Notes under the pieces: generated by a model
The model's input: only the letters and a program-made list of their open reading frames with translations
What the model was told of the DNA's origin: nothing
The model's database searches: none
Shown here: in pieces, positions 15,357 through 19,536 of the stretch
How positions within the stretch are numbered: position 1 is the stretch's first letter
Layout: every line of letters starts with the position of its first letter
Assembly: GCF_025061645.1 (NCBI RefSeq)
Contig: NZ_JANYMP010000023.1
Coordinates: 1 to 64,000 of the forward strand
Direction of reading: 5' to 3'
DNA: 64,000 bases
Origin: Umezawaea endophytica
GTDB taxonomy: Bacteria > Actinomycetota > Actinomycetes > Mycobacteriales > Pseudonocardiaceae
Translations under genes and position numbers: made by a program

Positions 15357-17732
15357 TCAGAGCTTGGTGATGGGGACTCCGCCGATGAGCATGAGGCGGA
15401 CCGTGCCCGCGCCGCCGAAGTCGATGGTGGCCGTCGCGCGGGGGCCGGAGCCGTCCACGGCGATGACGCGGCCGAGGCCGTACTTGTCGTGGGTGACGCG
15501 GTCGCCGACGTCCAGGGTGATCGCGGGGGCCTCGTTCCAGCCCTTGAACTGCGAGGTGCGCATGCCCCTGGCCGCCAGGCCCGCCTGGGCGGAGTCGCCG
15601 CCACCCCTGCGCCAAGTGGTGGCCGCGGCCGGGCTGGAGCGCTCCGGTTCGACCCGGCGCCAGTCCATCAGGTCCGCGGGGATCTCGTCGAGGAAGCGGG
15701 ACGCCGGGTTGGCGCTCGGCTGGCCCCACGCCGAGCGGACCAGTGCGCGGGAGAGGTAGAGGCGCTGCTGGGCGCGGGTGATGCCGACGTAGGCGAGGCG
15801 GCGTTCCTCCGCGAGTTCCTGCGGGTCACCCAGCGCCCGCATGTGCGGGAAGATGCCGTCCTCCCACCCGGTGCTGAAGACGACCGGGTACTCCAGGCCC
15901 TTCGCGGTGTGGAGGGTCATCAGGGTGACCATGCCGTCGGAGTCCGCGTCCGGGATGGAATCCGCGTCCGCCACCAGGGAAACGCGTTCCAGGAACGCGG
16001 CCAGCGAGCTCTCGGTCGGCAGGCCCTCGTCCTCCGCGGGGATGTCGACGACCTCGATGGCCTCGGCGTCCGAGGAGACCGGCGCCGACGCGGTCAGGTC
16101 GCCGAACTCGCGGGCGACGGTGACCAGCTCGTTGAGGTTCTCCACGCGGGTGTGGTCCTGCGGGTCCTCGCTCGCCTCGAGTTCCGCGCGGTAGGCCGTC
16201 TTCTCCAGCACCGCTTCGAGGATGTCCGCGACGTCGTCGCCGCGCTCCACCAGCTTGCCCAGCTCGTCCATCAGGTCGATGAACCCGCCGATGGACCGCT
16301 GCGACCGCGGGTTGAGGAACGCGACCTTGCCCGCCACGGCGTCGCGCAGCGCCGCGTGGAAGCTCATCCGGTACTTCTCGGCGTGGTTCGAGACGCACAC
16401 CTCGGCGCGGTCGCCGATGCCGCGCTTGGGGACGTTCATGATGCGGCGCATGGAAACCGTGTCGTCCGGGTTCGCCAGCGCGCGCAGGTACGCGAGCGCG
16501 TCGCGGACCTCGCGGCGCTCGTAGAAGCGGACGCCGCCGACGACCCGGTACGGCAGGCCGAGGCGGATGAAGATCTCCTCGAACACGCGCGACTGGTTGT
16601 TGGTGCGGTAGAAGACGGCGATCTCGCCGTTCGTGGCGTCGCCGCCGTCGACCAGCTTGTCGATCTCGCCCGCGACGAACGCCGCTTCGTCGTGCTCGTT
16701 GTCGGCGACGTAGCCGACGATCTTCTCGCCCTCGCCGAGATCGCTCCACAGGCGCTTGTCGCGGCGGTCCGGGTTGCGGGAGATGACGGCGTTCGCGGCC
16801 GTCAGGATGTTCTGCGTGGACCGGTAGTTCTGCTCCAGCAGGATGGTCGTCGCCTGCGGGTAGTCGCGCTCGAACTCCACGATGTTGCGGATCGTCGCGC
16901 CGCGGAAGGCGTAGATCGACTGGTCCGCGTCGCCCACGACGCACAGCTCGCCGGGCGGGACGTCGTCCGCGCCGGTGCCGACGAACTCGCGCACCAGCGT
17001 GTACTGCGCGTGGTTCGTGTCCTGGTACTCGTCGACGAGGACGTGCCGGAAGCGCCTGCGGTAGTGCTCCGCGACGGCCGGGAAGTTCTGCAGCAGCTCG
17101 ACCGTGCGCATGATCAGGTCGTCGAAGTCCATCGAGTTCGACTCGCCGAGGCGCCGCTGGTACGACGTGTAGACCTCGGCGACCCGGCGCTCCAGGTCGT
17201 TCGCCGCCTGCGCGGCCGCGGTCTCCGCGTCGACCAGTTCGTTCTTCAGGTTGGAGATGTGGATCGCGAGCGTCCGCGCGGGGTAGCGCTTCGGGTCGAG
17301 GTCGAGATCCCTGGCCACCAACGTGATCAGCCTGCGCGAGTCGTCCGAGTCGTAGATCGAGAAGTTGGACGACATGCCGAGCGTCTTGGCTTCGCGGCGC
17401 AGCACCCGCACGCACATCGAGTGGAACGTCGACACCCACATCGACCGCGCGCGGGGACCGACGAGGTCGGCCACGCGCTCCTTCATCTCGGCCGCGGCCT
17501 TGTTGGTGAAGGTGATCGCCATGATCTCGCCGGGGTGCACCCGGCGTTCGGCGAGCAGGTAGGCGATGCGGCGGGCGAGGACCCGCGTTTTACCGGAGCC
17601 CGCTCCCGCCACGACCAACAAGGGCGAGCCGGTGTGCTCCACCGCCCGCCGCTGGGCGGGGTTCAGGTCGTCGAGCAACCTGGACGGCCGGGGGGACGGG
17701 GGACTCGCGGGCAAGTCGAACAAGGCGCTCAT
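15357..17732 (-). CDS. pcrA: ATP-dependent DNA helicase PcrA/UvrD1
   Basis: 791 residues, usual for actinobacterial UvrD1. SF1A helicase motifs in order: Q-motif DDLNPAQRRAVEH, Walker A AGAGSGKT (42-49), ITFTNKAAAEMKERV, VDEYQDTNHAQY (Walker B/motif II), VVGDADQSIYAFRGA (motif III), LEQNYRST (motif IV), LMTLHTAKGLEYPVVF (motif V) and EERRLAYVGITRAQQRLYL (motif VI). The last 55 residues (VGDRVTHDKYGLGRVIAV) are the tudor-like domain that contacts RNA polymerase. Role: nucleotide excision repair, replication-fork clearance and removal of stalled transcription complexes. Divergent from the chorismate mutase leader, the same arrangement as Rv0949/Rv0948c. Confidence 0.97.
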   Translation of the reverse strand: MSALFDLPASPPSPRPSRLLDDLNPAQRRAVEHTGSPLLVVAGAGSGKTRVLARRIAYLLAERRVHPGEIMAITFTNKAAAEMKERVADLVGPRARSMWVSTFHSMCVRVLRREAKTLGMSSNFSIYDSDDSRRLITLVARDLDLDPKRYPARTLAIHISNLKNELVDAETAAAQAANDLERRVAEVYTSYQRRLGESNSMDFDDLIMRTVELLQNFPAVAEHYRRRFRHVLVDEYQDTNHAQYTLVREFVGTGADDVPPGELCVVGDADQSIYAFRGATIRNIVEFERDYPQATTILLEQNYRSTQNILTAANAVISRNPDRRDKRLWSDLGEGEKIVGYVADNEHDEAAFVAGEIDKLVDGGDATNGEIAVFYRTNNQSRVFEEIFIRLGLPYRVVGGVRFYERREVRDALAYLRALANPDDTVSMRRIMNVPKRGIGDRAEVCVSNHAEKYRMSFHAALRDAVAGKVAFLNPRSQRSIGGFIDLMDELGKLVERGDDVADILEAVLEKTAYRAELEASEDPQDHTRVENLNELVTVAREFGDLTASAPVSSDAEAIEVVDIPAEDEGLPTESSLAAFLERVSLVADADSIPDADSDGMVTLMTLHTAKGLEYPVVFSTGWEDGIFPHMRALGDPQELAEERRLAYVGITRAQQRLYLSRALVRSAWGQPSANPASRFLDEIPADLMDWRRVEPERSSPAAATTWRRGGGDSAQAGLAARGMRTSQFKGWNEAPAITLDVGDRVTHDKYGLGRVIAVDGSGPRATATIDFGGAGTVRLMLIGGVPITKL

Positions 17733-17916
17733 CGTGTGGCCACGTTACCCGCCCCGTGCGGCGGTCGGTTCCGCTCACCGGGCAACGCGGTGGGCGGAAC
17801 CGGTTGCTCACAGCGGAAACGGTCCGGAAGACGATCACCGCGCGCTGGTGTGGCGGGACCGCCCACGCGTTGGGACGTGGTCGCACCGCGAGCGGGCGCT
17901 GTGGCACTATGTGGGT

Positions 17917-17979
17917 GTGCGTGCGACTCACTTCGAGTTTTTCTACGGGATCCGGACTCCGGCTCCCGTGGTCGCCTAG
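17917..17979 (+). CDS. Phe/Tyr-rich leader peptide of the chorismate mutase attenuator
   Basis: Short frame GTG...TAG of 20 codons (or 22 from the in-frame GTG at 17911) with the run THFEFFYGIRTP: three Phe and one Tyr codon within five consecutive positions, followed by two Pro. A CACTAT -10-like element at 17905-17910 would start transcription at or near the GTG, so the leader mRNA is probably leaderless. Position just upstream of a terminator hairpin and of the first enzyme committed to Phe and Tyr makes this a classic attenuator leader peptide. Confidence 0.75.
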   Translation: MRATHFEFFYGIRTPAPVVA

Positions 17980-18010
17980 CGCGCGAACAACCACTGAAGC
18001 CCCGGAGTCC
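17954..18010 (+). promoter_or_regulatory. Antiterminator pairing of the Phe/Tyr attenuator
   Basis: GGACTCCGG (17954-17962, inside the leader-peptide codons just after the Phe/Tyr run) is exactly complementary to CCGGAGTCC (18002-18010). The second strand overlaps the 5' arm of the terminator, so only one structure can form. A ribosome stalled at the Phe codons would leave 17954-17962 free; one that reaches the stop codon would cover it. Confidence 0.7.
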
Positions 18011-18026
18011 TCGGACATCCGGGGCT
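17998..18026 (+). terminator. Attenuator terminator hairpin
   Basis: AGCCCCGGA (17998-18006) pairs with TCCGGGGCT (18018-18026), a perfect 9-bp stem with an inner GTCC/GGAC extension, followed by TTCGTCG. It lies between the leader-peptide stop and the chorismate mutase ATG. Confidence 0.75.
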
Positions 18027-18075
18027 TTCGTCGCTTCGGGGGTCCGGGACTCAAGCAGAGTCGAGAGGTCACACC

Positions 18076-18360
18076 ATGAGCACCACCGAAACCCCCGCGG
18101 CCGCCGCTCCCGAGGCGGCACCGGACATCGACGAGTTGCGCCAGGAGATCGACTTCCTGGACCAGGAGCTGCTGCGGCTGGTGAAGAGGCGCGCCGAGGT
18201 CTCCAGGACCATCGGCGCGGCGCGGATGGCGGCGGGCGGGACGCGCATCGTGCACAACCGCGAGATCGACGTGCTGAACCGCTACAGGGAACTGGGTCCG
18301 GACGGCAAGGACCTCGCGATGATCCTGCTCAGGCTGGGCCGCGGGGCGATGGGGCGCTGA
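18076..18360 (+). CDS. AroQ-type chorismate mutase
   Basis: 94 residues: a Pro/Ala-rich start, then a three-helix AroQ domain, DIDELRQEIDFLDQELLRLVKRRAEVSRTIGAARMAAGG and HNREIDVLNRYRELG. The Arg/Lys (RRAEVS, KR) and Arg of NRYREL fit the active-site charges. It turns chorismate into prephenate, the branch to Phe and Tyr. The size and place beside pcrA match Rv0948c, whose activity in M. tuberculosis depends on the DAHP synthase partner; the same may hold here (inference). GAGAGG ribosome site nine bases before the ATG. Expression is probably controlled by the Phe/Tyr attenuator directly upstream. Confidence 0.95.
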   Translation: MSTTETPAAAAPEAAPDIDELRQEIDFLDQELLRLVKRRAEVSRTIGAARMAAGGTRIVHNREIDVLNRYRELGPDGKDLAMILLRLGRGAMGR

Positions 18361-18385
18361 GGACCGCGCCGGGGCGGGTCGGGCC

Positions 18386-18408
18386 TGCGGGGTCGTTCGA
18401 GCCCCGCA
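18386..18408. terminator. Hairpin between convergent genes
   Basis: TGCGGGG (18386-18392) pairs with CCCCGCA (18402-18408) across a 9-base loop, between the chorismate mutase and deacetylase stops. Confidence 0.5.
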
Positions 18409-18435
18409 CGGCCGCGGCCCCGCCGGGAGCACCGG

Positions 18436-19536
18436 TCAGGAGGGGTCCGCGAGACCTCCGCCGAACACCTTCCAGTACCGCGCGTGGGGAGCGCGGGCCT
18501 TGTCGAGGTCGGCGTCCGTGCACTGCGCGTCGTCCGGCACGTAGGCCAGCGGGTCGTCGAGCAGCGGTTCCGGGAGGCGGAGCAGGCCCTCCACGAGGGC
18601 GTGCAGGCAGAGGGCGCTGTACCCGCGCAGGTAGCCGCCCTCCTGGGTGAGCACCAGCGGGAGGCCGAGGTCGGCCACGCGCCCACCGATCCGCCGGTAG
18701 CCGTCGGCGGTGAGGTTGTGCCGCCCGTTGGGGTCGAAGGCGCTGCCGTCGAACCCCGAGGCACACACGACCAGGTCCGGGGCGAACTCCTGGAGCGCCG
18801 GGAGGGCGATCTCGTCCAGTGCGCGCAGGTAGGCCTGGTCGCCAGCCCCGAGGGACAGCTCGACGTTGATGTTGCGGCCGTCGACGCCGGTCTCGTCGGG
18901 GGCACCGGTCTGCGGGTGGTTGGTGCCCCACGCGCCGTGGCGCATGTGCAGGGACACCGCCAGGACGTCGGGCTCGGACAGGAAGACCTCCTGGGTGCCG
19001 TTGCCGTGGTGGACGTCCCAGTCGAGGACGGCGACCCTCAGGCCCGCGCGGCGGGCCGTCTCCGCCACCAGTGCGGCGTTGTTGACCAGGCAGTAACCGT
19101 CGGCCATGGTCGGCTGGGCGTGGTGACCGGGGGGCCTGACCAGCGCGTAGGCGATCGGGGTGCCCCCGCGGACGGACTCCAGCGCGGCCAGGGCGGTGCC
19201 CGCCGCGGCTCGGGCCGCGTCCCACGATCCGGGGCCGACCACGGTGTTGACCTCCAGGGCGACCCTGTCGGGGCCCGCGCAGGCCTCGCGGAGCGAAGCG
19301 AGGTACGCGGGGGTGTGGACGCGTTCGAGCTCCTCGTCGGTGGCGAACCGGCCGGTGCGCCACGTGAGGTGCTCAGCGACCGGGCCGTGGCGCAGCGCGT
19401 GGCGGAAGGTGCGCAGGCGGGCGGCGTTCTCGGGGTGCGGCTCGGCGACGTCGAGCCAGGCCCGGTCGCCCGGCAGCTCCCACAGGCCTTCGCCCGCGTC
19501 GTGCTCCAGGCAGGCGTCGTGCCAGAAGATCTCCAC
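18436..19536 (-). CDS. Class II histone-deacetylase-like amidohydrolase
   Basis: 366 residues. HDAC/acetoin-utilisation fold with all active-site blocks: [12 protein letters not shown] (catalytic His pair), [18 protein letters not shown] (zinc Asp and His), [13 protein letters not shown] (second zinc Asp) and [12 protein letters not shown] (active-site Gly/Tyr region). Bacterial relatives deacetylate small molecules, polyamines or acetyl-lysine; the substrate cannot be told from sequence. The GTG start has no strong ribosome site. Convergent with chorismate mutase and divergent from the small membrane protein. Confidence 0.93.

Follow-up and report, generated by a model that had tools for sequence, protein, structure and literature searches.

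The chorismate mutase gene found in the genome of Umezawaea endophytica is very probably controlled by a ribosome-mediated transcription attenuator that senses charged tRNA-Phe and tRNA-Tyr. At this enzyme, the flow of chorismate turns towards Phe and Tyr and away from Trp. The locus lies in the 64,000-nucleotide stretch of DNA that was analysed here, which we refer to as the window. The parts of the element, their conservation, paired changes in the stems, codon bias and a dependence on ribosome position in folding calculations were all observed; a promoter, a leaderless start, termination and a response to Phe and Tyr are what we infer. The attenuator appears to be real and widely conserved, with an unusual breadth, and is apparently undescribed. 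Its parts and neighbours in the window are as follows:

15,357–17,732, minus strand: pcrA-type helicase, the divergent neighbour (sequence and domain match)
17,900–17,910, plus strand: predicted extended −10 element, TGTG-G-CACTAT (sequence and relatives)
17,917–17,979, plus strand: leader frame of 20 codons, GTG start at 17,917–17,919 and TAG at 17,977–17,979 (sequence)
17,932–17,946, plus strand: sensing codons TTC GAG TTT TTC TAC, encoding Phe, Glu, Phe, Phe, Tyr (sequence and codon counts)
17,946–17,968, plus strand: 1:2 hairpin, arms 17,946–17,955 and 17,959–17,968, one mismatch (folding and covariation)
17,954–17,962, plus strand: segment 2, the 5′ arm of the antiterminator, GGACTCCGG (sequence and covariation)
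17,997–18,027, plus strand: terminator hairpin 3:4, arms 17,997–18,006 and 18,018–18,027, followed by TTCGTCGCTT
18,002–18,010, plus strand: segment 3, the 3′ arm of the antiterminator, CCGGAGTCC, overlapping the 5′ arm of the terminator
18,063–18,068, plus strand: likely Shine-Dalgarno sequence of chorismate mutase, GAGAGG, outside the hairpins (by eye)
18,076–18,360, plus strand: chorismate mutase, the target gene (Pfam CM_2, E 1.8e-10)

Translation from GTG 17,917 gave the leader peptide V R A T H F E F F Y G I R T P A P V V A (VRATHFEFFYGIRTPAPVVA), and the alternative start, GTG 17,911, a frame of 22 codons. The 20–22 codon frame containing THFEFFY described in an earlier, sequence-only reading of this DNA was therefore present, and the coordinates which that reading gave for the frame, the terminator and the antiterminator were all correct to the base. 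The antiterminator (2:3, 17,954–17,962 with 18,002–18,010) has nine exact pairs, as does the core of the terminator (AGCCCCGGA, 17,998–18,006, with TCCGGGGCT, 18,018–18,026), which is extendable to ten (17,997–18,027). Nucleotides 18,002–18,006 are common to both structures, which makes them mutually exclusive. The same reading had the terminator followed by T-rich bases; its hairpin stood, with nine exact pairs, but the T tract behind it in the window (TTTCGTCGCTT) is poor even though the hairpin is strong, and a strict terminator scan of 17,700–18,400 (loop 3–8, at least five T in eight) returned no terminator-like site. It had also held that all the parts of an attenuator were present, which agrees with the sequence, although the 1:2 stem was missing from its list. 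This third stem (17,946–17,955 with 17,959–17,968) is the one that completes the classical attenuator set. It joins the end of the Phe/Tyr run to the codons behind the run, and together with the 2:3 stem it can explain the constancy of GGG-N-CGG-ACT-CCG-GCT-CCC. The assignment of the target as chorismate mutase was upheld by the Pfam match; its C-terminal Arg-Gly pair was invariant in 30 aligned sequences, and such a pair is given as invariant in AroQ-delta (PMC4281200).

In the proposed mechanism, transcription would start at or near the leader start codon and the ribosome would load without a Shine-Dalgarno site. If Phe and Tyr are plentiful, the ribosome would reach the stop codon (17,977) and cover segment 2, upon which segments 3 and 4 would form the terminator before chorismate mutase. 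When Phe-tRNA or Tyr-tRNA is short, the ribosome would stall on TTT-TTC-TAC (17,938–17,946), blocking the 5′ arm of the 1:2 stem and leaving segment 2 (from 17,954) free; segment 2 would then pair with segment 3 ahead of the synthesis of segment 4, allowing transcription of chorismate mutase.

The conservation of the element was analysed in 60 genomes (that of U. endophytica and 59 relatives), all 60 of which encoded chorismate mutase. A Phe/Tyr-rich short frame, defined as three or more Phe/Tyr among six residues within 450 nt upstream, preceded the gene on the same strand in 57/60 genomes, compared with 0/60 on the opposite strand and 6/300 for other stretches of the longer loci, with relatedness among the genomes inflating every conservation count. 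Below the three-in-six test were L048 (RFLYG, two in six), L132 (RYF) and L038 (none). Among 40 named loci (Saccharothrix, Umezawaea, Actinosynnema, Kutzneria, Prauserella, Saccharomonospora, Actinokineospora, Mycobacterium and Mycolicibacterium), a leader was found by pattern in 34 and by eye in the remaining six, where variants included RFPYG, RFTYG and RFFHG. A covariance model built from 53 leaders placed the element 1–266 nt upstream of chorismate mutase, on the same strand, in 53/60 genomes (E ≤5.1e-8); most of the matched leaders were among its inputs, and the 11 that lay outside it (in G001, G005, G011, G022, G027, G039, G043, G046, G048, G056 and G059) include some with close kin inside it. 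Genomes missed by the model either encoded Phe/Tyr-rich leaders of other sequence before chorismate mutase (G037, G040, G045, G051, G052), a weak leader (G044) or no leader (G055). The conserved Phe/Tyr codons that the sequence-only reading proposed to look for in relatives were thus found, and the loss of the short frame and stems from relatives, by which it proposed to be judged, was not the rule.

Of the 67 rows of model matches, 14 were off the expected place: six matched the opposite strand of the expected locus and eight were elsewhere. Two of these eight weak matches were looked at and set aside, both lying at the ends of other frames. Two loci of one genus, L038 and L190 (G055 and G148), encoded chorismate mutase without a Phe/Tyr leader; by eye, L038 kept a leaderless-looking promoter (GTGGCAAACTGGCAGCATG), as L190 similarly did, which was then followed by another short frame. 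L131 (YPRFVFAYAYAF) and L133 (FFYGFRYAFF) carried expanded chorismate mutase leaders with many Phe/Tyr codons, unlike the standard form.

Many stems arise in GC-rich DNA, and a chance combination of such stems with a chance frame would be the simplest account of the locus. Its probability is negligible, given the occurrence of the element in 53 and of the short frame in 57 of the 60 genomes, and given that 0/5000 dinucleotide-preserving shuffles of 17,905–18,076 contained both a hairpin of 9 bp (loop ≤25, three or more T in the next eight) and an upstream 9-bp stem excluding it. The shuffles likewise bear out the terminator and exactly complementary antiterminator of the sequence-only reading. 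When 172-nt tiles of both strands of the window were screened by the same criterion, 2/3192 passed, both covering the leader locus. The strand at 17,917–18,040 folded at z = −4.5, and 0/200 shuffles were equally stable. A search of the U. endophytica genome for a second copy of the element gave none that was clear, the leader locus matching the model at E 1.5e-25 and the next match at E 0.24.

Paired changes were examined in an alignment of 53 distinct leaders and compared with 500 shuffles, which leave relatedness in place. In the 1:2 stem, 90.2% of cells were paired and both sides had changed in four pairs (29 cells); 0/500 shuffles reached this cell count or the covariation score, and 18/500 the pair count. 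The 2:3 stem was 95.0% paired, with both sides changed in four pairs (12 cells), values reached by 0/500 shuffles for cells and score and by 4/500 for pairs, and RNAalifold, unprompted, chose exactly this stem. In the window's own register, the 3:4 stem was 72.7% paired with four pairs (12 cells) changed on both sides; here 109/500 shuffles reached the pair count, 2/500 the cell count and 4/500 the score. One column further, this stem was 81.8% paired, because the window has extra loop bases. Paired changes are therefore clear in the 1:2 and 2:3 stems and weaker in 3:4, so that the compensatory changes sought by the earlier reading in both of its stems were evident in the antiterminator and less so in the terminator.

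The poor T tract of the window, and the lack of a strict terminator in the scan described above, would suit an arrangement in which the same leader and stall act by translational coupling or Rho-dependent termination instead of by intrinsic termination. We regard this as highly unlikely, as the 53 leaders of the alignment keep a GC-rich hairpin whose 5′ arm the antiterminator also uses, longer T runs lie behind the hairpin in several relatives (e.g. L039, L041, L046), and the likely Shine-Dalgarno sequence of chorismate mutase is outside the stems.

Codon usage was analysed with codons numbered from the Gly that follows the aromatic run. TTT accounted for 105 of the 200 Phe codons at −7 to −1 of the leaders and for 0/51 Phe codons in a comparison set made up of the chorismate mutase genes downstream and of the pcrA and deacetylase-like genes of the window (Fisher p 1e-14, relatedness ignored). 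By place, the share of TTT was 75/79 at −3, 24/70 at −2 and 5/39 at −5. In the window, the Phe codon at −3 is TTT (17,938–17,940); Phe at −5 is mostly TTC in the leaders. Behind the Gly, ACT encoded 60/61 Thr at +3 compared with 6/223 Thr codons in the downstream genes, and GCT encoded 54/62 Ala at +5 compared with 21/821 Ala codons. None of the TTT, ACT and GCT biases was forced by the pattern used to select leaders.

The peptide itself (FFYGxRTPAPV) was strongly conserved across many genera, as it would be if it arrested its own ribosome on another signal and the RNA stems followed from that stall. In L021, L030 and L037, however, a shifted frame altered the tail of the peptide and the stem bases were unchanged; ACT at +3 and GCT at +5 were fixed at the base level, and diverged leaders held the aromatic residues with quite different tails. 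Arrest by the nascent peptide is thus very improbable, and was rejected mainly because of the shifted frames and the fixed choice among synonymous codons. The shifted frames and the TTT, ACT and GCT biases indicate that the Phe and Tyr matter as codons and that the part behind them matters mainly as RNA.

Analysis of the region before the leader start codons revealed a hexamer with A at its second and T at its sixth position, ending 6–7 nt before ATG or GTG, in 79/82 leaders, although start codon and hexamer were picked together by a score favouring such hexamers. At a fixed offset from the start codons at −10 (57 distinct sequences), G was found at −14 in 91%, A at −11 in 81% and T at −7 in 81%. 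This pattern fits an extended −10 element and a leaderless transcript with a predicted start at approximately 17,917. A sigma-70 scan requiring a −35 element returned no site in 17,700–18,400.

The effect of ribosome position was calculated for 82 leaders (72 distinct in the core). The pattern that selected them required aromatic residues and then Gly, and Phe/Tyr therefore occupy −3 to −1 by construction. Equilibrium folding of the complete transcript with a masked ribosome showed no switch in the 82 leaders in four states (no ribosome, ribosome at the stop codon, at −1 and at −2): the terminator had P > 0.5 in 62, 62, 62 and 60 leaders, respectively, and the antiterminator exceeded the terminator in 0, 9, 7 and 10. 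A second model, picked after the complete-transcript model gave nothing, followed the cotranscriptional order by folding only the RNA from the ribosome to the start of segment 4. Before segment 4, the 2:3 stem had P > 0.5 in 68, 70 and 66 of the 82 leaders with the A site at −3, −2 and −1 before Gly, in 0/82 with the ribosome at the stop codon and in 25/82 without a ribosome. With the ribosome further downstream, this number was 61/82 at the Gly codon, 44 at +1, 7 at +2 and 0 from +3. Further upstream it fell gently, from 62/82 at −4 to 41/82 at −12, because the calculation does not let the 1:2 stem form first. In the cotranscriptional-order folding only, then, a stall is predicted to free segment 2 and a ribosome at the stop codon to cover it, which supports the earlier proposal that stalling would leave segment 2 free (66–70/82 stalled compared with 0/82 at the stop codon).

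The known system nearest in kind is the aroR leader before aroF in Corynebacterium glutamicum, which in the work of Neshat et al. of 2014 is reportedly leaderless. The two are alike in that aroR encodes a Phe-Tyr-Phe leader peptide in an actinobacterium and belongs to the aromatic pathway; aroR controls the DAHP synthase aroF, whereas the predicted target here is chorismate mutase, and it is on the target that the two are compared. The pheL leader of Escherichia coli has a ribosome-binding site and is not known for an emphasis on Tyr. Like the leader described here, it places Phe codons before a gene encoding chorismate mutase activity, but it is gammaproteobacterial and precedes the bifunctional pheA. 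The aroR/aroF system has been read as ribosome-mediated attenuation responding to Phe (PMC11802643, PMC4046766) and the E. coli pheA attenuator has Phe codons in its leader peptide, pheL (PMC11802643). Short peptides, several of them leaderless, are likewise described for the actinobacterial trp, ilvB, leuA and leuS leaders (PMC1262725, PMC8079986), which differ from the present one in serving other amino acids and other genes.

A search of Rfam with 17,000–19,000 of the window (E up to 5) returned three unrelated matches, all far below gathering scores, and no match to a Phe leader, another amino acid leader or a T-box; five related loci had no match at the gathering threshold. In the literature searched, no chorismate mutase leader of Actinobacteria was found, and the sequence-only reading knew of no description either; the papers by Lopatovskaya et al. 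(2010) and Neshat et al. (2014) may mention one. Seliverstov et al. 2005, in the available part of the paper, reported no conserved RNA structures before Phe/Tyr operons in Actinobacteria (PMC1262725), a statement that the attenuator would revise, and, in the available part of the Streptomyces lividans reannotation, Phe or Tyr is assigned to none of the eight leaders given (PMC8079986). Apparently, then, it is the attenuator of chorismate mutase that is new, ribosome-mediated leader attenuators as a kind being already known. For mycobacterial chorismate mutase, the known control is described as allosteric, in a complex with DAHP synthase on which Phe and Tyr act together as inhibitors (PMC4281200); a switch at the level of the gene that reads the same Phe and Tyr would add a second layer of control to this allostery. 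It would also offer a natural Phe/Tyr sensor and a point for deregulation in antibiotic-producing genera.

A class-wide search with the covariance model gave matches at E 0.01 in 32/148 genomes, U. endophytica included. Of the 30 matches with loci, 18 were before chorismate mutase (tblastn), ten of these from one genus (g73) with 6–10 Mb genomes and leaders such as MLTQTTFLFTYGNRPTGCHGRAA. Six were before DAHP synthase, identified by an adjoining PF00793 match in L111, L116, L117, L118 and L119 and by translation similarity in L114; L120 and L121 had the same kind of leader, and L112 and L122–L124 were before neither gene. Another 23 chorismate mutase loci had no model match at that place, and five of them passed when Trp was also counted in the three-in-six test (L174, L175, L178, L187, L188), one of the five having Trp (L174). 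In family f30 (12 loci, including L178), an open frame contained FYG in 11 and FYQ in one. L189 had RFYPD upstream of chorismate mutase, and the locus of L195 was cut off. No leader was found in L190–L194 (family f8, same order) among these 23 loci. Diverged forms thus stand before chorismate mutase in further families of the class, and in some lineages the element has been lost, replaced or reduced.

The DAHP synthase loci were analysed as the best 30 matches of the class search together with one locus of the U. endophytica genome. A Trp/Phe/Tyr-rich short frame was upstream of 18 of these 31 loci; counted in a fixed search interval, it occurred in 18/31 in sense and 0/31 in antisense. Trp was in the aromatic run of 13/18 DAHP synthase leaders and of 1/82 chorismate mutase leaders (codons −7 to −1), a not quite even comparison because Phe/Tyr content was the basis on which the 82 were selected. 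Codons matching the end products of each enzyme are a prediction of the attenuator reading. Leaders of trp genes are known from other actinobacteria. In the U. endophytica genome, the pattern revealed no aromatic leader before the prephenate dehydratase (L197) or the three TrpE-type genes (L198–L200) on C6 and C22 of G000, nor before one type I DAHP synthase (L125), but this pattern had no positive control, the expected trp leader not being recovered either. Among the type II DAHP synthases L126–L130, L126 was the one judged by eye, and it had no aromatic leader.

It is about an even chance that the aromatic pathway of actinomycetes is run by matched leaderless attenuators whose codons follow the place of each enzyme in the pathway, a proposition to be taken as a whole. 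In it, chorismate mutase would be preceded by Phe and Tyr codons and many DAHP synthases by codons for Trp as well as for Phe and Tyr, in parallel with the reported allosteric inhibition, in which the chorismate mutase complex responds to Phe and Tyr and DAHP synthase to all three amino acids; the near-invariant, rare TTT at −3 would set the sensing point of the chorismate mutase leaders.

The aromatic frames before DAHP synthase (L144–L173) included MQRVYFWFSKP, MSMTSRWYAYF and MSCSAYYWFTDG (e.g. L148, L152, L159, L171).
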